Of a DNA stretch of 32,650 bases, positions 11,735 through 29,789 are shown piece after piece; position 1 is the first letter of the stretch; every line of letters starts with the position of its first letter. The notes under the pieces are model-generated. The model made no database searches. It was not told the origin of the DNA and saw only the letters and a list, made by a program, of their open reading frames with translations. Location: assembly GCA_029864235.1 (NCBI GenBank), contig JAOTTW010000009.1, positions 1-32,650 of the forward strand. Reading direction: 5' to 3'. A program made the translations under genes and the position numbers. The DNA comes from Candidatus Nitrosopumilus sp. (GTDB lineage: Archaea > Thermoproteota > Nitrososphaeria > Nitrososphaerales > Nitrosopumilaceae).

Positions 11735-11810
11735 GCTCCTGTGGTGTAGTCCGGCTAAGCATACTGCCCTCTCAAGGCAGTGATCTCGGGTTCAAATCCC
11801 GACGGGAGCA
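11735..11810 (+). tRNA. tRNA-Glu(CTC)
   Basis: A full cloverleaf can be folded. The acceptor is GCTCCTG/CGGGAGC with discriminator A. The D arm carries AGTCCGGCTAA. The anticodon stem is CTGCC/GGCAG around loop CTCTCAA (anticodon CTC, reading GAG). The T arm is TCGGG-TTCAAAT-CCCGA. No CCA is encoded and there is no intron. Its 3' end serves as the attachment site of the element to its right (repeat at 29776-29789). Confidence 0.96.
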
Positions 11811-11811
11811 T
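11798..11811 (+). repeat. att repeat, tRNA side
   Basis: cccgacgggagcat covers the T-stem 3' strand, acceptor 3' strand and discriminator of tRNA-Glu plus one base. It is identical to 29776-29789. Tyrosine recombinases typically cross over in this part of a tRNA gene and restore the tRNA from element DNA. Confidence 0.7.
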
Positions 11812-11820
11812 CTCATTTTA

Positions 11821-12454
11821 GTGACTAAAATAGACGCAGACCATATTAGAAATGTGAAGCTACAGTTAAACAGATTGGAAGAAGATGCTTTTGTTAACTT
11901 TGTAGAATCAATAGCAAGTCCACAGACAAGGCGCAACTACATAAGAGATATTCAGGTATTTTTAAAACTAATCCCAAGTAGCATATTTGAAGAGTATGAA
12001 ATTAAACATAATGCAGGAGATTTCCAGTTAGAAGACAGGTGTGAGGCGTTTGTGGCCTTGGCAAAAAAGGACACAAGCATCATAAAAAACCATAATAAAG
12101 TCATACTTGATTGAAATCAAACGAAAAGTGGATGTAGGAAAGTTGAGTCCTAATTCGGTGTCCAATAGAATCAAACCAATCAAGGCACTGCTTTCTGCAA
12201 ATGAAGTAGACATTTCCTGGAAGATGATCAACAAAATGTTTCCGCGAGAGATAAAAAGCCAGGATAGAGCATACACAAGAAAAGAAATTCAGGACATGCT
12301 AAAGCATTGCACAGATATTATTGATAGACTCATAATTTTGATGTTTTCATCTGGGGGTTTCAGACTAGAGGCATGGGACTATTTCTGTTGGAAAGATGTA
12401 GTTCCACCTGATGGACTGCCACTTGGAATAGCAGTACATGATCTGACTTCCTAG
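11821..12454 (+). pseudogene. Broken tyrosine recombinase (integrase)
   Basis: Two reading frames encode consecutive parts of one integrase. From 11821 (GTG): a SAM-like N-terminal core-binding domain (NFVESIASPQTRRNYIRDIQ). From about 12107: GKLSPNSVSNRIKPIKALLS, then RAYTRKEIQDMLKHCTDIID and the start of the catalytic domain (SSGGFRLEAWDYFCWKDV, with the first catalytic-type Arg). A one-base frameshift at about 12107-12114 joins them. After KDV the frame runs into PPDGLPLGIAVHDLTS and stops, so the rest of the R-H-x-x-R...Y catalytic core is absent. It is therefore both frameshifted and truncated. Its position directly behind tRNA-Glu identifies it as the integrase of the surrounding element. 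Confidence 0.82.
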
Positions 12455-17149: not shown

Positions 17150-18058
17150 TTAGTGCATATTGTTACTATCAGCAATAATTTTTTCGAATTCTTTAAAATT
17201 TATTTCCTCATGTTTTATGTTAGTCATATTCAATTTTGAATTTGAGTGAGATAAATCATTAAGATTTTCAATCATTAGCTCTTGCTCAAATATTTTCAGA
17301 ACATTTTTTATTTTTTCATAATCGTTGTCGTCCAGTTTTTTTATTACTGCACCCTTACCGGTAGTTGTTCCTTGTCTTGTGTAAATTATACCTCCCACCA
17401 TACCTGAACCAAACTGTTCACCAGGGGGACCCAAGTTAATCAGAATTCCATCTGACATGTATATTCCGGAATTAAATCCTGCTCCAAAGGTAACAAGATT
17501 TCCTCCTCTAGCTTGAGCCATCGCTCTTTCCATGCAGCCTTTTCTTACAAGTATATCTACTCCATGACTATAACTTGTTGATTGATTGTTTTGTCCAACA
17601 AGTTCTGTTGCTAATCCATCTATGACAAATTTTCCACAATATCCTTTGTCAGCTAATCCATTCTCTGCATGGCCCTTGACTGTCCATGTTCCATTAAAAT
17701 TGCAAAATGCGCCAAAGAAATTCCCAACATTTCCTTCCACAGTCAAGTTGAGTTCAACAGGGTCCAAATAACCCAACACGCCAATTCTATAAAGTGCCTT
17801 GGGGTTTCTTATGAGTATGTCAGTTTCTCCTTCTTCCACTTTTTTTCGAAGTATTGAGTTTGTTATGTTTTCATAAAGTATTGGCGAGCTGGCAATATCC
17901 CCAAATTTTTCAATTGCGGCAGTTTTGAGCCCATTTGGTAATATTATCCCGTACTTTTCATTGAGTTTGGTCTTCAGTAATTCAAATTCTCTATCAGTTC
18001 CTTTTTGCGAAATTTCTTGTGCTAATGACCTAATGTCATCTATATCCAGAGTAAACAT
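17150..18058 (-). CDS. Glutamate-synthase GXGXG-domain subunit
   Basis: A 302-residue protein, last gene of the four-gene GOGAT unit. From about residue 100 it shows the right-handed beta-helix of the GltB C-terminal domain (PF01493): ELNLTVEGNVGNFFGAFCNF, GTWTVKGHAENGLADKGYCG, SYSHGVDILVRKG, then GAGFNSGIYMSDGILINLG and FGSGMVGGIIYTRQG. In GltB this domain is structural and holds the catalytic domains together. As a separate protein it corresponds to GlxC of rhizobia, MgsB of N-methylglutamate synthase, or archaeal GltB-3. The N-terminal ~95 residues are helical and specific to stand-alone forms. It starts 4 bp after the amidotransferase gene. Confidence 0.85.
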   Translation of the reverse strand: MFTLDIDDIRSLAQEISQKGTDREFELLKTKLNEKYGIILPNGLKTAAIEKFGDIASSPILYENITNSILRKKVEEGETDILIRNPKALYRIGVLGYLDPVELNLTVEGNVGNFFGAFCNFNGTWTVKGHAENGLADKGYCGKFVIDGLATELVGQNNQSTSYSHGVDILVRKGCMERAMAQARGGNLVTFGAGFNSGIYMSDGILINLGPPGEQFGSGMVGGIIYTRQGTTTGKGAVIKKLDDNDYEKIKNVLKIFEQELMIENLNDLSHSNSKLNMTNIKHEEINFKEFEKIIADSNNMH

Positions 18059-18062
18059 TTTG

Positions 18063-18917
18063 TTAATTCCTGTAAAAGATCTTAGGTTTTCCCGGATGAG
18101 GAGTTTCTATTTTCTCAGTAGCACCTATCACATCTAAGGCAGACAGGTCAGTTGCCATGGCCCAAAAGGGTGGTTGTTTTTCTGTTCCTGGATTGTATCC
18201 TATTATTCCTTTTCTAGTACCAAACTTGTCACGTACGATAGCAAGCGAATCAGCCGTTGCTGCTATGTATGTAAATGGTCCATCTGCTCTTGATATAAAC
18301 TCGCGATGTGCCCTCTCCACATCTCCATGTTTTAGTATTTGACTTGCTATGAAAACTGCAATTACTTCAGAATCACTGTCTGTGTAAAAGCTATATCCCT
18401 CTAATTCCAGCATATCTCTTAACATGTTATAATTTGTAATTTCTCCATTATGCACAATTGCAACATCAGGTAAGATGGTAGTACTAAATGGATGAGTGTT
18501 GTACGGAGTAACTCTACTGCTAGTTGCAATTCTTAGATGGCCTATTCCATGAGATCCCGTAATTTGTCGTATGTTGTATTTTTTGTCTAGATCTTTTGCT
18601 AGTCCTACATCTTTAATTAACATCATTTTATTTTCAAGACTGTAAAAGGTACAATCTGCATCATCATACAAGCTTATCAAATTTTCATTTATTTTGTCAG
18701 TTGAAGAATTAATCTCATCACTGGTGAATTTTTCTCCATTGGCTCTAAAGCTCTTTATTCTAAAAGAATTACTAGAATTACTGTTATCGAATATTGCAAT
18801 ACCTGCACCATCTTGAGCTCTAATCTGCTGGCTTTCCATCATGTCTTGTAAGAGTGAGCCAACATGTGAATAACGGATATCTGCATCATCCATCATAATC
18901 CCACATATTCCGCACAT
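18063..18917 (-). CDS. Class-II glutamine amidotransferase subunit of GOGAT-type enzyme
   Basis: A 284-residue Ntn-hydrolase domain that would release ammonia from glutamine. It begins MCGICGIM, so Cys2 becomes the N-terminal nucleophile after Met removal. Other family blocks are GHLRIATSSRVTPYNTHPFS, VAIVHNGEITNYNMLRDMLE, the YTDSDSEVIA region, and DGPFTYIAATADSLAIVRDK. The overall pattern matches the stand-alone GlxB/MgsA class better than asparagine synthetase or GlmS. It lies directly against the upstream gene (stop at 18918) and 4 bp before the GXGXG gene. Compared with GltB, the amidotransferase is third rather than first in order. Confidence 0.88.
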   Translation of the reverse strand: MCGICGIMMDDADIRYSHVGSLLQDMMESQQIRAQDGAGIAIFDNSNSSNSFRIKSFRANGEKFTSDEINSSTDKINENLISLYDDADCTFYSLENKMMLIKDVGLAKDLDKKYNIRQITGSHGIGHLRIATSSRVTPYNTHPFSTTILPDVAIVHNGEITNYNMLRDMLELEGYSFYTDSDSEVIAVFIASQILKHGDVERAHREFISRADGPFTYIAATADSLAIVRDKFGTRKGIIGYNPGTEKQPPFWAMATDLSALDVIGATEKIETPHPGKPKIFYRN

Positions 18918-20066
18918 TTAATTTTCCTCCAAAATTACTTTCTCAAGGATTTTTTGTTTTTGTTGCTCATTTATTTGAATTTGTTTTTTACTTATGTGGT
19001 CGTCGAATATCTCTTCAAGGATTTGTGTGTATGTTTTGTCTACTCCCTCAAGCATGATATCTCCTTCCAAACTTGCCTTAATGTTTGAAGTTCTAAAATC
19101 ACTAGGAGAGAGATTGTGAAAATTGCTATACCCTAGAGCAGCAGGAATTCCTGTTAATTCATTTTTGGTAGCCATCATGTGATTGTATATTTTTTTAGCA
19201 GTAATTTCTTCATCAAAGAATTCTTCAGAATAATGACCAACTTTGGCAATCAACAGACTTGTGTCATAACCAATGACATCCGCACCCAGTCCTGCAACCT
19301 TTATTATTTTTCCAGTACTGTCCACATCTCCTGCAACAATTAAACATGCCCCATCATTTTCTTTTCCCTGATAAAACTCATTTATTGAAGCCCTAGCATC
19401 ATGTATGACAGATATTGCGTGTTTCTCTGCATATTTTTCGCTTTTTGTTATTTTTGCAGTATCAATTAAAATTCCATCTACTCCCAATTCCAACAATTGG
19501 GGGACATAATATGAGAAATTCTCATCTACCTCCACTATGACAGGACCCCAAAATTCTTTTCTAATTTTTTTTATTTTTTCAATGGTATTTGCATTGACAT
19601 ATTCTATTACGATTCCATCAGGATCAGATATTTGGTTGATGTCACTTATTATTTGAAAATGAGGGTATTTTCTTTCATCACATGGTTCATCTTTGGAAAT
19701 AATTCCTATCGTTGAATTACTGTCTGCTAAATCATTTAGTGCGAGATTCAGTGAATCTTTTGAACTTTGCGACAAGTCAAATTCTCCATAAAGCAATAGA
19801 GGTATCTTCAAGGTAACCTTTTGATCTCCTTTTCTTCCTATTTCTGTCCTAAGCTTGATTTTTTCTCGGTATGGATCAAACGGAGGCCTTGACAATTGAG
19901 CCCCAAGGGCCACTACATAATCCCACAAGCTTTCATCGCGGTTTTTGTTTCCACGTTTTTCTCTGATTGCTCTTATTGCATCATCCATAGACTCCTTTCT
20001 GACCGGCTCTGCATTGCAGAGCTCAATTATGGATTTTCTAATTATTGCTTTTTCATTTAGTCTCAA
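18918..20066 (-). CDS. Degenerate GOGAT-like barrel subunit
   Basis: A 382-residue protein encoded between the FMN subunit and the amidotransferase. The N-terminal third has WDYVVALGAQLSRPPFDPYR, recalling both the GltB central domain (AQVTNPPIDPIRE) and the start of archaeal FMN-domain proteins. The C-terminal part (GLGADVIGYDTSLLIAKVGH and GIPAALGYSNFHNLSPSDFR) follows the end of the FMN barrel. The FMN-site and [3Fe-4S] signatures of the active subunit (GQGAK, GGTGA, C-x5-C-x4-C) are missing. I infer a non-catalytic barrel, equivalent to the GltB central domain. Its ATG overlaps the upstream stop by 4 bp. Confidence 0.72.
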   Translation of the reverse strand: MRLNEKAIIRKSIIELCNAEPVRKESMDDAIRAIREKRGNKNRDESLWDYVVALGAQLSRPPFDPYREKIKLRTEIGRKGDQKVTLKIPLLLYGEFDLSQSSKDSLNLALNDLADSNSTIGIISKDEPCDERKYPHFQIISDINQISDPDGIVIEYVNANTIEKIKKIRKEFWGPVIVEVDENFSYYVPQLLELGVDGILIDTAKITKSEKYAEKHAISVIHDARASINEFYQGKENDGACLIVAGDVDSTGKIIKVAGLGADVIGYDTSLLIAKVGHYSEEFFDEEITAKKIYNHMMATKNELTGIPAALGYSNFHNLSPSDFRTSNIKASLEGDIMLEGVDKTYTQILEEIFDDHISKKQIQINEQQKQKILEKVILEEN

Positions 20067-21649
20067 GAATTCCCACCTTGTAAATTAAGTACAGCCATCG
20101 CATTCTCTATTCTTTGTTTGATTTTTGATACATAATCTGTTCCATCTAAAAATTTTAATTTTGAAATAATGCTGGTTAGCAAATCACTTACAACCAGATC
20201 ATCAGGATTCATGTCATGAATGCTTTTTCTTCCAAGTGATCCTGCGATATTTTCTAGCTCGGTTTTTGTTGTTTTGATGTAATTGAAGATTCCATCTGCA
20301 CTGTTTTCGACATCAAGTTTTTCATGAGAACCAGTAATTCCGGCAGGACAAATATCAGTATGGCATTCCTGAATAAGTGTACATCCCATTGCAAGAAGGA
20401 ATCCTGTACCAATTCCTACTCCGTCTGCTCCCAATGCAAGTACTTTTGCCACTCTTTCAGAGTCCCAAATACCGCCATTCATCAATAGCTTGAATCCGTC
20501 ATTGTCATGGGTCTTGTAATAATCTGCAATTGCGTTTCTTATTGGAAAAAGTGAAGCTATGGTGTTTATTCCAATATCTTCTCTTACTTCAAAGGGTGCA
20601 GCACCTGTACCTCCTGCCAATCCATCTACTGTTGCAGCATCGGCATACGATTTTAGAATTATTTCCATATCATCATAAATGCGTGAAGCGCCTACCTTCA
20701 CAATTATTGGCATTTCCCAATTGGTCAGTTCTCTGAGTTCTAAAACCTTGGCTACCAAGTCTTCAGGTCCCAAAATATCTAAATGTCTTGAAGGTGAATG
20801 TGCAGGTTTGTTTGGAAGTATTCCACGGTTTTCAGCAACTAGTTCTGTTACTTTGGAACCTGGAAGCAATCCACCATGTCCTATTTTAGCACCTTGGCCA
20901 ATTTTGATTTCAATTCCGTCTGCATTAAGAAGATATGAAGGATCCTTCCAAAATCTTCCAGATGCATACTGAACAACTAGAGGATATTTTCGTTGAAACA
21001 ATTTATCCATATCAATCCCATCCAAATTACTATCCTTTAGCAGTCGGTCTGTATATTGCAAGATTGAATCCCAATGAGATTTGGACAAATGTTCACGAGA
21101 TTTTTCAGAGCCATATACCTCCCATGGCAAAGCACCACCTTCACCGGTATTCATCAAAACTCTGATTCCATTTTCTGCAAGTCTGTTTAAGGCAAAATGT
21201 AATGCAATCTTTGCAGGTAACTTTACAGAGCCATAACTCATAGCTCCCACTGAAAATGGAACATCGGTTTTGATAATATTTTTAGAGTATCTTCCACCAA
21301 TTGTCAATGAAGTGTCTATATCAGAATTATCTTGTTGAATCGAATTTAATTTTGCATTCTTTATTCTTATATCTGGAAAATAGTCATTTGGTACATGAGC
21401 ACCCAAGCTAGCATAAGGAACATTTCCTTCTACTGCCTTTTGAGCATCAAGCAATAGATTTTTTAAGCTAGTAGCATGTCCAATTTCCTTTGCTGTTTTT
21501 TCCATGTTCCACCTAAAGTTCATAATGTCTTTTGATAGCGGCATTCTTTTTATTCCAAATTCATGTCTTATATATTCATTGGTAATGATAACCAATGACA
21601 ACCAATTTCTACCATAGTTTATATATTGGGTATTAGCTTGAAATGACAT
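20063..21649 (-). CDS. Glutamate-synthase FMN/[3Fe-4S] catalytic subunit
   Basis: A 528-residue synthase subunit, which would form glutamate from 2-oxoglutarate and glutamine-derived ammonia using electrons from ferredoxin or a similar donor. Visible motifs are MNTGEGG at 166-172, IKIGQGAKIGHGGLLPGSKV at about 248-267, HSPSRHLDILGPEDL, VDGLAGGTGAAPF at 341-353 for FMN and substrate, and C423-x5-C429-x4-C434 for a [3Fe-4S] cluster (CTLIQECHTDIC). The first ~85 residues differ from typical archaeal GltB and lack its two 4Fe-4S ferredoxin modules. It is the first gene of the operon and divergent from glnA, with a 100-bp gap. An NMG-synthase-type (MgsC) role cannot be excluded from sequence. Confidence 0.88.
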   Translation of the reverse strand: MSFQANTQYINYGRNWLSLVIITNEYIRHEFGIKRMPLSKDIMNFRWNMEKTAKEIGHATSLKNLLLDAQKAVEGNVPYASLGAHVPNDYFPDIRIKNAKLNSIQQDNSDIDTSLTIGGRYSKNIIKTDVPFSVGAMSYGSVKLPAKIALHFALNRLAENGIRVLMNTGEGGALPWEVYGSEKSREHLSKSHWDSILQYTDRLLKDSNLDGIDMDKLFQRKYPLVVQYASGRFWKDPSYLLNADGIEIKIGQGAKIGHGGLLPGSKVTELVAENRGILPNKPAHSPSRHLDILGPEDLVAKVLELRELTNWEMPIIVKVGASRIYDDMEIILKSYADAATVDGLAGGTGAAPFEVREDIGINTIASLFPIRNAIADYYKTHDNDGFKLLMNGGIWDSERVAKVLALGADGVGIGTGFLLAMGCTLIQECHTDICPAGITGSHEKLDVENSADGIFNYIKTTKTELENIAGSLGRKSIHDMNPDDLVVSDLLTSIISKLKFLDGTDYVSKIKQRIENAMAVLNLQGGNS

Positions 21650-21750
21650 GTTTTTACAAGATTACAAAGATTCTATACAAAATAATCTCGTAGATTTCAG
21701 TTTGAGCGATTATGGAAAAAGTCTTGGTTTGATAATTGTTGGAGAAGAAA
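21650..21750. promoter_or_regulatory. Shared divergent promoter region of GOGAT operon and glnA
   Basis: The only gap between the two divergent units. It contains an AT-rich core at about 21671-21685 (ctatacaaaataat). Read on the minus strand this gives a TATA-like box 24-32 bp before the GOGAT ATG. Read on the plus strand it would give a glnA mRNA with a leader of about 45-50 nt. A ggag purine run (21740-21743) precedes the glnA ATG and may be a ribosome-binding site. Joint control of both units is likely but inferred. Confidence 0.4.
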
Positions 21751-23250
21751 ATGAGTGATAATTCAAATCAAAATGTTGTAAAAGTATTAGATACAATAAA
21801 GAATGAAAAAATTGAATGGATAAGATTACAGTTTTGTGATCCCTTTGGAATACTACAACAGATTAGCGTTTCAAGTGAAGATATAACCGAAGAGGCATTT
21901 TCTCAAGGTTTGCCCAGATTAGATGGCAGTTCGATTAAAGGCTTCAAGGAGATTTATGATTCGGACATGCTACTATCTCCTGATCCTAATACATTTGCAA
22001 TAAATCCTGATTTTTTTGACATGGACTATCGTGAAAGAGAAAATACAGATTACAGCACCAAATCAGCACGGTTTTTTGTAAATATTCATGAAGGATATAC
22101 TGGAAAACGCTATTCCAGAGATTCACGATACATAGCAGAAAGAGCATGCGAGATTGCAAAAGAAGTAGGATTTGACAAGTGTTATTTTGGTCCAGAAGTT
22201 GAATTTTTCATTTTTGACAAGATTGTTCTAGGTCCAAGTCCAATGTCTACCATAAATTGGTCTGGAGGAACTGGTTATTCAATTGAATCAAGAGAGGCAC
22301 CGTGGTCGACGGATACTGGTAGTGGTTATCATATTCCAGTAAAGGGAGGATATTTCCCAGCTCCACCTGCTGATAGTCTTAATTGTGCCAGAGATGAAAT
22401 AGGGAGTACATTACACAGATATTTTGGAATTAAAATAGAAGCCCACCATCACGAGGTTGCAACTGCAGGACAAGGAGAGATACAGATGGAATTTGACGAA
22501 TTACTCCCAATGGCAGATAATGTAATTACAATGAAAAAGACTACAAAAGAGATAGCATCTAAACGTGGCAGAATTGCAAACTTTATGCCAAAACCATTAG
22601 AAGTGGATAATGGTTCAGCTATGCACATAAGCCAGAGTTTATGGAAGGAAGAAAATGGCAAAAAAATCAACACCTTTTATGATGCAAATGATGAGTATGC
22701 CGAATTAAGCCAGACTGCACTATATTACATTGGAGGACTGCTTGAGCATGCAGGATCCCTTTGCGCCATAACAAATCCAACTACTAACTCTTACAGGAGA
22801 TTAGTTCCTGGTTTTGAGGCACCCACAAATCTAGCATGGAGTAGAAGCAATAGATCTGCATGTATAAGGATTCCATCACATCACAAAAACATGGAAACTA
22901 GAAAAAGAATAGAATCTAGAATCCCTGATCCTAGCGCCAACATCTACTTGGCTCAATCAGCCATGCTGTTAGCTGGCCTTGACGGTATTAAAAAGAAGAT
23001 TCAACCTCCCGACCACGTAGATATGAACATTTACAAACTTTCTGAAGAAAAGAAACGTGAGATGGGAATTAAAAAACTACCTGTTGCTTTGCGAGAATCA
23101 ATTGCAGCATTAGAAAGTGATGATGAATACTTGCAGCCAGTATTTGCCAAAGATTTCCTTGAAGAATATTGTGAAATTAAAATGCATGAACACATCTCTG
23201 TATTTTCGTTGCCTTCCCCAAGGGAATTTTACTTGTATAGCAATGTATAA
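21751..23250 (+). CDS. glnA: Glutamine synthetase type I
   Basis: A 499-residue enzyme making glutamine from glutamate, ammonium and ATP, probably as a dodecamer. Family signatures are IEWIRLQFCDPFGILQQ, FDGSS-type (LDGSSIKGFKEIYDSDM), GPEVEFFIFD, HHEVATAGQGEIQMEFDELL, the HISQSL segment, and NPTTNSYRRLVPGFEAPTNL, then SRSNRSACIRIP. In place of the NLYDLP adenylylation loop of type I-beta enzymes it has MNIYKLSEEK, so adenylylation control is unlikely. ATG 21751 is chosen because ggag lies 8 bp before it; an in-frame TTG at 21736 is weaker. It is divergent from the GOGAT operon, so the two form a GS-GOGAT cycle. Confidence 0.95.
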   Translation: MSDNSNQNVVKVLDTIKNEKIEWIRLQFCDPFGILQQISVSSEDITEEAFSQGLPRLDGSSIKGFKEIYDSDMLLSPDPNTFAINPDFFDMDYRERENTDYSTKSARFFVNIHEGYTGKRYSRDSRYIAERACEIAKEVGFDKCYFGPEVEFFIFDKIVLGPSPMSTINWSGGTGYSIESREAPWSTDTGSGYHIPVKGGYFPAPPADSLNCARDEIGSTLHRYFGIKIEAHHHEVATAGQGEIQMEFDELLPMADNVITMKKTTKEIASKRGRIANFMPKPLEVDNGSAMHISQSLWKEENGKKINTFYDANDEYAELSQTALYYIGGLLEHAGSLCAITNPTTNSYRRLVPGFEAPTNLAWSRSNRSACIRIPSHHKNMETRKRIESRIPDPSANIYLAQSAMLLAGLDGIKKKIQPPDHVDMNIYKLSEEKKREMGIKKLPVALRESIAALESDDEYLQPVFAKDFLEEYCEIKMHEHISVFSLPSPREFYLYSNV

Positions 23251-24930: not shown

Positions 24931-26745
24931 TTGGAAAATCCAAAACAAAAGATTGTCAAGACCAAAACAAAACAGGGGCGCAATTGGTCGAAATTACAAG
25001 AGATAGAAAAATTTGCTGAAACTGTAAAGATGTATCGTCAAGGAAAGATTGACAAAGACATTTTCCGGAGATTCAGGCTACAACATGGAGCTTATGGCTC
25101 TAGAATGACTGATGATTATTCAATGATTAGAATCAAGGCTCCTGCAGGACAAATTTATCCATATCAATTAAGAAAATTAGCTCAACTTAGCGAGGCATTC
25201 TCAATAGGTAGCGTACATGTATCAACACGACAGAGTATCCAGATGCATTGGGTGGTACTAGAAGATGTATCAGAGGTAATGCGAGGACTAGCCGAAGTAG
25301 GAATGACATCAAGAGAAGCTTGTGGCAACTCTGTGAGAAACGTAATGTGTAGTCCCCTTGCAGGAGTCTGCAGTAATGAAGCCTTTGATGCAACACCATA
25401 TGCATTTGCAATAACCAAATTCTTTTTACGAAACCCATTGAGCCAGAACCTTCCGAGGAAATTCAAATTTAATTTTACATGTTGTGAAAAACACGGCATG
25501 GCAAGAATGGTGGATGTTGGGTTGATTCCGCAAACTAGAGTAATTGATGGAGACACTCAAAGAGGATTCAAAATATTTCTTGGCGGGGGGTTGGGAAACA
25601 AATCCTTTGTAGGGCATCAGCTAGAGGAATTTACTCCAGAGGAGGACTTGGTATATACGTCAATTGCAGTAATTCGAATATTTGACAGACTTGGTAACAG
25701 AAAAAACATGGCAAGAAACAGAATGAGGTATCTAGTTGATGAAATGGGTTGGGAGAACTTTCAAAATGTGGTATTAAAAGAAAGGTCCGTTATGCGTGCA
25801 ACTCAATCTGTTATTGTTAAACTTGACATCGATCATTCTTTACCTGAAATCAAAAAATCAATTAGTGTTTTAGAAGAAAGTGGCACTCCAAACCTTGATG
25901 GTTATTCTAGATGGTACAAAACCAATACAATAAGACAAAAACAAGAAGGATACTACTGTGTATTCATAAACTTGGAGGCAGGAGACATCACCTCAAGCCA
26001 ACTTTTATCCTTAGCAGATATTTGCCAAGACTTTTCTGCTGAAGACTTTGCACGAAATGGATTTTCTCAAGGGATAGTATTGCGATGGATAAGTGAAGGC
26101 GACTTGCCAAAACTTTACTCTAGATTGATTGGGGCAGGACTTGCAAAATCTGGTTCGTTAACTATGGCATCACCTGTTGGATGTTCGGGAACTACCTCCT
26201 GTAACTTGGCCTTAACGAATTCACATAGATTGGCAAAGGAAATTCAGAGAAAACTACTGGAGTTGAAATTAGACGAAGATGATGATCTAAGGGATTCTAC
26301 AATCAAGGTAAGTGGCTGTCCCAACTCTTGCGGTCAACATGAAATTGCGACCATAGGGTTCTATGGCGGAGGCGGAAGAGTAGGAAAAAATATGTATCCT
26401 AACTATCAAATGTCTTTAGGAGGACGTTCAGACGAGCATACCATGCTTGGCGTAAACTGTATGAGGGTTCCGGCCAAACGAGTGATTCCAGTATTATTGA
26501 AAATAATTGAACTGTTCAAGAACAACAAAAAACATGAAGATTCACTATCGTCATGGATTAGTAGAATAATCAACGGAAAAGAAGAAAGTGAGGATTCCGA
26601 AATAAGTTCAGTGGGAGATTTTAAAAAAATCCTATCACCGTTAGTTGTTCCTCCATCCATAGACGAAGACAAGGACTTTTTTTCAGACTATGGAAGTGAC
26701 ACAAGCTATCATACAGTTACAGGGAAAGGAGAATGTGCTGCTTGA
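24931..26745 (+). CDS. nirA: Siroheme/4Fe-4S nitrite (or sulfite) reductase, assimilatory
   Basis: A 604-residue enzyme performing six-electron reduction of nitrite to ammonium (or sulfite to sulfide) with reduced ferredoxin. It has the two pseudo-symmetric halves of the family: GSVHVSTRQSIQMHWVVLED (96-112) in the first ferredoxin-like domain, FKFNFTCCEKHGMARMVDVG, and the cluster motif C418-x5-C424 ... C463-x3-C467 (CSGTTSC and SGCPNSCGQH). SGCPNSCGQH is shared by NirA and SiR. I favour nitrite because the neighbours are GS/GOGAT and a PII-like gene, with no sulfate-assimilation genes nearby. The C-terminal ~70 residues are low in conserved pattern. TTG is the best start by promoter spacing. 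Confidence 0.85.
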   Translation: MENPKQKIVKTKTKQGRNWSKLQEIEKFAETVKMYRQGKIDKDIFRRFRLQHGAYGSRMTDDYSMIRIKAPAGQIYPYQLRKLAQLSEAFSIGSVHVSTRQSIQMHWVVLEDVSEVMRGLAEVGMTSREACGNSVRNVMCSPLAGVCSNEAFDATPYAFAITKFFLRNPLSQNLPRKFKFNFTCCEKHGMARMVDVGLIPQTRVIDGDTQRGFKIFLGGGLGNKSFVGHQLEEFTPEEDLVYTSIAVIRIFDRLGNRKNMARNRMRYLVDEMGWENFQNVVLKERSVMRATQSVIVKLDIDHSLPEIKKSISVLEESGTPNLDGYSRWYKTNTIRQKQEGYYCVFINLEAGDITSSQLLSLADICQDFSAEDFARNGFSQGIVLRWISEGDLPKLYSRLIGAGLAKSGSLTMASPVGCSGTTSCNLALTNSHRLAKEIQRKLLELKLDEDDDLRDSTIKVSGCPNSCGQHEIATIGFYGGGGRVGKNMYPNYQMSLGGRSDEHTMLGVNCMRVPAKRVIPVLLKIIELFKNNKKHEDSLSSWISRIINGKEESEDSEISSVGDFKKILSPLVVPPSIDEDKDFFSDYGSDTSYHTVTGKGECAA

Positions 26746-26901: not shown

Positions 26902-27519
26902 TTAATATGCATAATTTACCATTTTATCAAATACAGTTAGATTAGAGTCACATTTAATTTGTAGTTCATTTGTTACGAGATACTTCTGTATGCAATAATT
27001 GATAAAATCACTATATGAATTTATTCCGTATTCTGATTGGAGTATTTTTTTATGTTTTTCATAGAACTGTGATGTCTTTGAGACGGTTAGCTGTTGAAGT
27101 GAAACCATTCTATTTCTTTTGATAAAAGGTGTTTTAATGAGTTGTTTTTTCTCATCTCGTGGATCGGCGTTGATATTATAGGAACCATCATCTTTTATTA
27201 CAGAGATGTCTTTGATACGAGGCATCTCCACAGTTGTTACAAACATACTTTTTCTTTTTGCATGATCAGATAATCCAGAATGTTTTGTAATTATTTGAGA
27301 TGCTTTTTTGAGATTTTTGTCAGAAACTGCAATTTCTAATTTTGAGAGTGAAATAGAATTATTATTTGGGTATTGTTTCTCATATGTTTGAACATTTAAT
27401 ATTTTTTCACAATCACCTGTTAGATTTTGAACATCTATTATTACATAATTTATTTTTTTTAATTGGTTAATTATAGATGAACGGTTTGATCTTTTCATCA
27501 ACGCTTCAATCTTTTTCAC
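26902..27519 (-). CDS. Divergent PII-like signalling protein with C-terminal extension
   Basis: A 205-residue protein. Residues 1-~115 follow the PII (GlnB) fold: MKKIEALMKRSNRSSIINQL, NYVIIDVQNLTG, a shortened and altered T-loop region, then SLSKLEIAVSDKNLKKASQI and RKSMFVTTVEMPRIKDI where PII has the IFV-x-P-V-x-x-x-x-x-IRTG block. The uridylylation Tyr context and the terminal RTGE are not evident. About 90 further residues, including a SYSDFINYCIQKYL helix, have no PII counterpart. It lies next to nirA and close to glnA, so it may sense 2-oxoglutarate or ATP/ADP for this cluster. It starts with GTG 4 bp after a truncated ferredoxin gene. Confidence 0.6.
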   Translation of the reverse strand: MKKIEALMKRSNRSSIINQLKKINYVIIDVQNLTGDCEKILNVQTYEKQYPNNNSISLSKLEIAVSDKNLKKASQIITKHSGLSDHAKRKSMFVTTVEMPRIKDISVIKDDGSYNINADPRDEKKQLIKTPFIKRNRMVSLQQLTVSKTSQFYEKHKKILQSEYGINSYSDFINYCIQKYLVTNELQIKCDSNLTVFDKMVNYAY

Positions 27520-27523
27520 TAGA

Positions 27524-27790
27524 TCAATTACGAGTAATGGTATTTATTCTTGGATCTGAGAATGGTGATTTTAAAATTAATAGAAAAGCAACTGCAACCA
27601 TTGTTCCACTAACACCAAGTGGTACTTGTTTTTCCCCACGTGCCTCATATGCCTTTATCACATCTTCATTTTTAGATGCATCAGCATCGGACTTACCTGG
27701 ACCCCAAATCCAGTGAAAGTGTTCACCATCTGAATGATTAATTTTTCCAATTGGTTTTAGTCCCTCAGGAAAGTTTGCATCTATTGGCAT
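27524..27790 (-). pseudogene. Truncated thaumarchaeal ferredoxin (N-terminal part only)
   Basis: An 88-residue frame from ATG 27790. Its first ~67 residues (MPIDANFPEGLKPIGKINHS, HFHWIWGPGKSDADASKNED, YEARGEKQVPLGVSGTMVAV) match, from memory, the N-terminal extension of the group's 4Fe-4S ferredoxins. There MVAV is followed by an Asp/Cys-rich cluster domain. Here the frame changes to AFLLILKSPFSDPRINTITR and stops, with no cluster Cys. A TATA-like tttaaataata lies 25-35 bp before the ATG, so the promoter looks intact. It may now serve as the leader of the PII-like gene 4 bp downstream. Confidence 0.62.
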
Positions 27791-27907
27791 AATGTCCAAA
27801 AATTTGAGTTATTATTTAAAACCAGACAAAATTAGTTTATCCTAACATAATGAAATGTAATGACCTTTTTAGAAATTTTCATTAGTGATGTCTTGTAATT
27901 GTACTCT

Positions 27908-28857: not shown

Positions 28858-29064
28858 TTAGTCTATCATCTTCTGATGGAATCTATCTTTGTACGGTCTA
28901 GTTCTAGGTCTCGTTCTTAAAGACATACCACAACATGGGCAATGAACACCTTCCCAAATAAGAAAAATATTGCACGCATTACATCTTTTCTGACCATTTC
29001 TGTATCTATCTTCATGAGACATCCATTTTGCCTTGTATCGGGTACAAACCTCTTTACATGCCAT
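28858..29064 (-). CDS. Small zinc-ribbon protein (CPCC type), copy 2
   Basis: A 68-residue protein starting MACKEVCTRYKAKW. It has C-x3-C near the start, then GQKRCNACNIFLIWEGVHCP and CCGMSLRTRPR. The set C-x3-C / C-x2-C / C-P-C-C could hold two zinc ions. It is a tandem paralogue of the gene just upstream, which it overlaps by 11 bp. ATG 29064 is chosen by alignment with that paralogue rather than the in-frame GTG at 29073. Function is unknown; the Arg-rich tail suggests nucleic-acid contact. Confidence 0.7.
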   Translation of the reverse strand: MACKEVCTRYKAKWMSHEDRYRNGQKRCNACNIFLIWEGVHCPCCGMSLRTRPRTRPYKDRFHQKMID

Positions 29065-29305
29065 AGATTTCACCTATAGTCGCTTTTGTAGGGGCCGCCT
29101 TCTGAACTATTGTTTTCTTTTTAGATTTTGTATGTCGTGGTTTGACTCTCAACCGATAATTACAACATGGACAAAAAGGACCATCCCAGTAAAGAAAGAG
29201 TTCACAAGAGTTACATCGTTTTTGTCCTAGTCTGTAGCGTCCACTGCTAAATGATTCTTTGGATGCCTTGTATCTAATGCATATTCCATTACATGTAATT
29301 CCCAT
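29054..29305 (-). CDS. Small zinc-ribbon protein (CPCC type), copy 1
   Basis: An 83-residue protein: MGITCNGICIRYKASKESFS, GRYRLGQKRCNSCELFLYWD, GPFCPCCNYRLRVKPRHTKS, then a Lys/Ala tail. Cys layout and order match the next gene, so the pair arose by tandem duplication. This copy has an extra basic C terminus. The 11-bp overlap implies translational coupling. This RYKA...GQKRC...CPCC pattern is one I associate with thaumarchaea. Confidence 0.72.
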   Translation of the reverse strand: MGITCNGICIRYKASKESFSSGRYRLGQKRCNSCELFLYWDGPFCPCCNYRLRVKPRHTKSKKKTIVQKAAPTKATIGEIYGM

Positions 29306-29775: not shown

Positions 29776-29789
29776 CCCGACGGGAGCAT
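29776..29789 (+). repeat. att repeat, distal side
   Basis: cccgacgggagcat is identical to the 3' end of tRNA-Glu (11798-11811). The rest of the tRNA is absent here, so this is a displaced 3' fragment rather than a second tRNA gene. Confidence 0.7.

Follow-up and report, generated by a model that had tools for sequence, protein, structure and literature searches.

PII-RHH, a family of PII-domain proteins with a probable DNA-binding module and a candidate operator at glnK-amtB in ammonia-oxidizing archaea

We analysed a stretch of 32,650 nucleotides (hereafter the window) from Candidatus Nitrosopumilus sp. (assembly GCA_029864235.1, contig JAOTTW010000009.1, positions 1 to 32,650). One of its genes encodes a member of an undescribed protein family, which we name PII-RHH, made up of a PII domain, a loose linker and a conserved C-terminal module of ~55 residues. 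The larger result, beyond the single window gene, is this family together with its candidate operator at glnK-amtB, found at one or two places per genome. We propose, with a probability of roughly 0.6, that PII-RHH proteins are PII-based transcription factors whose ancestral members regulate glnK-amtB and bind the palindrome TGATNATCA, the window protein being an island paralogue that likely acts in the same way.

PII proteins act on transcription via partner proteins. Fusion of PII directly to a DNA-binding module would, if true, shorten this chain to one protein. To our knowledge, transcriptional control of nitrogen genes in ammonia-oxidizing archaea is poorly known, and PII-RHH would then represent an undescribed nitrogen gene switch in microbes that are among the most abundant on Earth. 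A literature search, covering mostly papers available without subscription, found no description of a fusion between PII and a DNA-binding domain.

Results

The window protein carries a PII fold

The 205-aa open reading frame is real and occupies exactly positions 26902-27519 of the minus strand, stop codon included, with a GTG start. It encodes a PII domain (residues 1-105; 27205..27519) with a T-loop at about residues 36-55 (27355..27414), a linker at about residues 106-134 that is predicted to be disordered (27118..27204; pLDDT <50), and the C-terminal module at residues 135-190 (RNRMVSLQQLTVSKTSQFYEKHKKILQSEYGINSYSDFINYCIQKYL...; 26950..27117), all on the minus strand. Linker and helical module together make up an extension of ~100 residues beyond the PII part.

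That the N-terminal ~105 residues adopt a PII fold is near certain. The Pfam P-II model aligned with residues 1-97 of the window protein at E 9e-4 and 20 bits, missing its cut-off of 25 bits; the chromosomal paralogue clears it with 32 bits, and the family profile matches solved GlnK/PII proteins with E ~1e-13. An AlphaFold model of the monomer showed the PII order of strands and helices with a core pLDDT >90, and its top PDB matches were all PII proteins. This comparison with GlnK had been suggested by an earlier, sequence-only reading of the same DNA, and it bears out the strand and helix order that this reading had assigned to the N-terminal part. The helical C-terminal extension and the loss of RTGE were also read correctly: at the C-loop, the window protein has KDIS.. 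and the family METLEG. The 'short' T-loop has to be corrected. In the alignment to M. jannaschii GlnK1 the loop has 20 residues in both proteins, and is therefore rewritten rather than short, lacking GRGQ and the Tyr51-type site.

In reference PII proteins, ATP and 2-oxoglutarate are contacted by R9, Q39, K58, K90, R101 and R103, with F92 stacking (PMC8395244). The window protein and its family retain K90 and F92 and keep a basic residue at position 9 (K instead of R in the window protein). Q39, K58, R101 and R103 are replaced, so that canonical 2-oxoglutarate sensing is not predicted. Some of these side chains are also missing from several ordinary PII proteins that the genome encodes. Judged from the sequence, the PII-RHH sensor may possibly respond to an altered ligand or mix with GlnK. 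The window genome (1.7 Mb) holds ten PII-domain genes in total; among those aligned, the T-loop ranges in length from 12 to 22 residues.

The C-terminal module is probably an RHH domain

Across 41 aligned relatives, the C-terminal module is conserved no less than the PII part. Since the pair of domains is kept in at least 41 aligned relatives, its occurrence is not due to chance. The module opens with an almost invariant KRxRxV stretch, followed by a long, kinked helix A and by helix B, which starts with SFSDF. R137 is invariant in the 41-member alignment, and K134, R135, V139, S170 and D171 are nearly so. Both helices were modelled at high pLDDT in the AlphaFold monomer; the strand would form only in a dimer.

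Searches of Pfam, NCBIfam, PHROGs and PDB sequences returned nothing usable for the module: the RHH families of Pfam and NCBIfam did not match the C-terminus of the fusions, and no solved structure matched it by sequence. Foldseek with the C-terminal model gave one insignificant PDB match (3no7, a ParB, E 6.3) and insignificant viral matches. Profile searches recovered small free-standing relatives, L050 and L051, and the more distant L282. L050 reached Pfam RHH_5 with E 0.04, and L282 also touched Pfam RHH models weakly. When a profile of the fusions and L051, without L050 and L282, was compared by hhalign with 30 archaeal RHH domains, the score was 18, compared with a median of 8.9 after shuffling, and one of 150 column shuffles equalled it. 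With L050 and L282 added, the alignment spanned the strand, helix A and helix B at a probability of 66-84% (P 6e-5 to 7e-6; equalled by 0/200 shuffles), strong values that are partly due to the inclusion of L282; the fusions alone gave 14-28%, and with L050 alone the value was 55%. Together with the family conservation and the modelled helices, this profile match via free-standing relatives indicates that the module is probably an RHH DNA-binding domain.

PII proteins normally work by protein contacts, and the module could instead be a protein-binding helical hairpin, for instance for AmtB, GlnK or glutamine synthetase, a reading that would also suit the missing curated RHH match and the structure-library searches described above. 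We consider it quite improbable in view of the nearly invariant, basic and strand-like KRxRxV ahead of helix A, the RHH-type start of helix B and an RHH profile match far above shuffles. The free-standing copies, at 57-81 aa, moreover resemble small RHH proteins.

PII-RHH genes usually adjoin glnK-amtB

Relatives of the window protein are encoded at 235 places in the genome collection. Searches of viral contigs, phages and plasmids found none. The two-domain layout occurs in many Nitrosopumilaceae and also in Nitrosocaldaceae. The usual order is PII-RHH on the plus strand, glnK on the minus strand and amtB on the plus strand. In 58 of 80 PII-RHH loci amtB lies at most 3.5 kb away, and several of the remaining loci are cut by contig ends. 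One genome (G168) has a truncated PII-RHH gene (L052:2662-2928), with amtB absent from the surrounding sequence obtained.

Besides the window gene, the window genome carries a glnK-amtB-linked PII-RHH gene on contig C14 (L004:415-991). Compared with its relatives, this copy has a 2-nt deletion, so that the C-terminal module is no longer in frame with the PII part; the frameshift may be either real or an assembly error.

A candidate operator accompanies glnK-amtB and PII-RHH

The intergenic region that separates glnK from the divergently oriented amtB holds the 9-bp palindrome TGATNATCA repeated at 11-bp spacing, as in TTTTGATAATCAAATGATAATCAAATGATAATCAAA. Arrays hold two to three copies, and about ten in one locus (L078). 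TGATAAT resembles Fur-type boxes. A perfect TGATNATCA was present in 37 of 40 amtB promoters (0.2 expected). Where the PII-RHH gene is detached from glnK-amtB, an array often stands upstream of PII-RHH: of 26 promoters belonging to detached genes, 13 had a tandem array, as against 0 of 40 attached ones. The array occurs almost nowhere else genome-wide. The family loci, 0.92 Mb in all, contained 118 tandem sites when up to 2 mismatches were allowed; 97 directly precede amtB, 17 are upstream of PII-RHH, and the other 4 lie elsewhere. Among 250 Nitrosopumilaceae genomes, those having a tandem array usually had it once or twice, and a reversed-pattern control matched in one genome. The array of the window genome lies at glnK-amtB (C14:1366-1385).

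Presence of the array follows that of the gene. In counts compiled by hand, 35 of 43 genomes with PII-RHH had an array compared with 1 of 21 without (Fisher P 3e-9), and in the largest genus the figures were 19/23 and 0/7; the loci share descent, so these counts are not independent and the P values are weakened. The correlation may also arise from loss of the glnK-amtB module in its entirety, of which G168, with its truncated PII-RHH gene, may be a case. We hold with moderate confidence that the array is a candidate operator of PII-RHH.

A different regulator, Lrp/AsnC-like or Fur/DtxR-like, might bind the array, with PII-RHH merely a co-located signalling protein. GATAAT is a Fur-type core, a literature search on the 9-mer yields Fur-related papers among others, and the 11-bp helical spacing fits many archaeal regulators; the array upstream of amtB is, moreover, conserved with or without a separate PII-RHH promoter. 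However, one or two sites per genome, located at glnK-amtB or PII-RHH, are unlike an iron regulon. Arrays at the promoters of detached PII-RHH genes are what autoregulation predicts, and the array is missing where PII-RHH is missing. We therefore regard another regulator as rather unlikely and favour binding by PII-RHH itself.

The window gene is a divergent copy in a nitrogen island

The window gene lies in an integrated island of ~18 kb at a tRNA-Glu gene, which also encloses glutamate synthase, glutamine synthetase and nitrite/sulfite reductase. The left, attL-like end is the 3' end of the tRNA, CCCGACGGGAGCAT (11798..11811, plus strand), and an exact 14-bp repeat of it forms the right, attR-like end (29776..29789, plus strand). 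Recombinase-like ORF fragments at 11821-12454, judged by eye and with no match in Pfam, adjoin the tRNA. The split archaeal-type glutamate synthase comprises four ORFs (17150..21649, minus strand), with GXGXG, glutamine amidotransferase and, in two of them, glutamate synthase domains. By comparison with relatives, the last of these ORFs probably starts at 21544 (MPLSKDIMN). Glutamine synthetase (21736..23250) and a ferredoxin-type nitrite/sulfite reductase (24931..26745) follow on the plus strand. The reductase gene is a second copy in the genome (the other is on contig C93), and a widespread homologue in other Nitrosopumilaceae neighbours rhodanese, cysteine synthase and thiazole-synthase-like genes; the enzyme may hence reduce sulfite and not nitrite.

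A 91-aa ORF (27524-27799, minus strand) precedes the PII-RHH gene at a distance of 4 bp; it has no match in Pfam, and resembles the N-terminal region of thaumarchaeal ferredoxin, apparently truncated and with an unrelated tail. At 28858-29305 (minus strand), two tandem small ORFs of 71 and 83 aa are zinc-ribbon-like; they contain several cysteines, of which some form C-x2-C pairs.

This glutamate synthase is rare in Nitrosopumilaceae, with 5 of 250 genomes having it. One relative, G256, shares the gene order as far as the reductase, at which point its contig breaks off; G306 and G349 have the GOGAT-GS part, and no PII-RHH gene was found in them. The divergent promoter between GOGAT and GS holds an ACC(A) repeat array with a 10-bp period (21586-21617), which is also present in G256, G349 and G356 (loci L248, L249, L250 and L251). 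It is a second, different candidate operator. We did not assign it to PII-RHH, given its presence in G349, one of the genomes that yielded no PII-RHH gene.

The sequence-only reading had proposed a fused effector domain and a regulator dedicated to the nirA/glnA module. The effector domain stands, probably as a DNA-binding RHH module. The case for specificity is weak: the usual home of the family is glnK-amtB, the window copy is the sole one next to nirA/glnA, and no TGATNATCA was found in the 32,650-nt window, which leaves the island copy without a visible target there.

Identity between the window copy and other members does not exceed 39%, and the window copy has lost the GGKIF pattern that most of them keep. 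Its branch in the tree is very long (4.3 changes per site), and its placement is unsettled for this reason. The window genome is close to Nitrosarchaeum. We rejected the presence of orthologues of the window gene elsewhere in the genus, as other Nitrosarchaeum genomes have the glnK-amtB-linked gene only. The long branch, the lost pattern and the lack of an obvious local operator would fit a non-functional or decaying piece of island cargo, as would an earlier report of PII genes on integrated elements in this group of archaea (PMC6563490). Yet the window frame is open at full length and keeps the invariant C-terminal residues, the nitrogen-assimilation genes of the island look intact, and the frameshifted copy is the chromosomal one. 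Decay thus appears unlikely to us. We prefer to see the island copy as a divergent paralogue, and put forward any role for it with little confidence.

Discussion

According to our model, the ancestral, glnK-amtB-linked PII-RHH proteins would most likely be one-component regulators. The PII part would act as the sensor core, either by itself or in mixed assemblies with the GlnK encoded next to it, its canonical ATP/2-oxoglutarate pocket being largely rebuilt, and a flexible linker would join it to the RHH module. Signal sensing and a trimer/dimer assembly are inferred: the RHH parts would pair and bind the tandem palindromes, spaced by one helical turn, in the region that separates the promoter of glnK from the divergent one of amtB. 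Detached PII-RHH proteins would bind at their own promoters too, resulting in autoregulation. The window protein, a fast-evolving paralogue carried by the tRNA-Glu island, could use the same operator in trans, that is the C14 array at glnK-amtB, or another one within the island. More tentatively, many ammonia-oxidizing archaea might use PII-RHH as their transcription factor for nitrogen status, an intermediary-free switch from PII to DNA that binds TGATNATCA arrays at glnK-amtB as well as at its own gene, with the island copy recruited to the GS-GOGAT cassette.

Compared with GlnK/GlnB (PF00543; M. jannaschii GlnK1), the window protein shares the ferredoxin-like fold, the 20-residue T-loop, K60, K90 and F92, and the usual location of its family adjoins glnK-amtB. 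In contrast to GlnK/GlnB, PII-RHH has lost Q39, K58, R101 and R103 (with R9 changed to K), RTGE and the T-loop modification site, and has gained the linker and the C-terminal module. With RHH/CopG proteins (PF01402, PF07878) it shares the basic strand-like stretch, the two helices and the S-x-S-D start of helix B, and its candidate operator is likewise a tandem array of short palindromes. It differs from them in a helix A that is ~8 residues longer, in fusions without a Pfam match and in the position of the module behind a PII domain.

NikR combines an RHH domain with a ferredoxin-like ACT domain. It offers an analogy of working, in which a ferredoxin-like sensor controls DNA binding by RHH next to a transporter locus, whereas in PII-RHH the domain order is reversed and the sensor belongs to a different family. 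NrpR of methanogens likewise exerts archaeal transcriptional control of nitrogen genes and the glnK-amtB locus, but PII-RHH is an unrelated protein with a different operator sequence.
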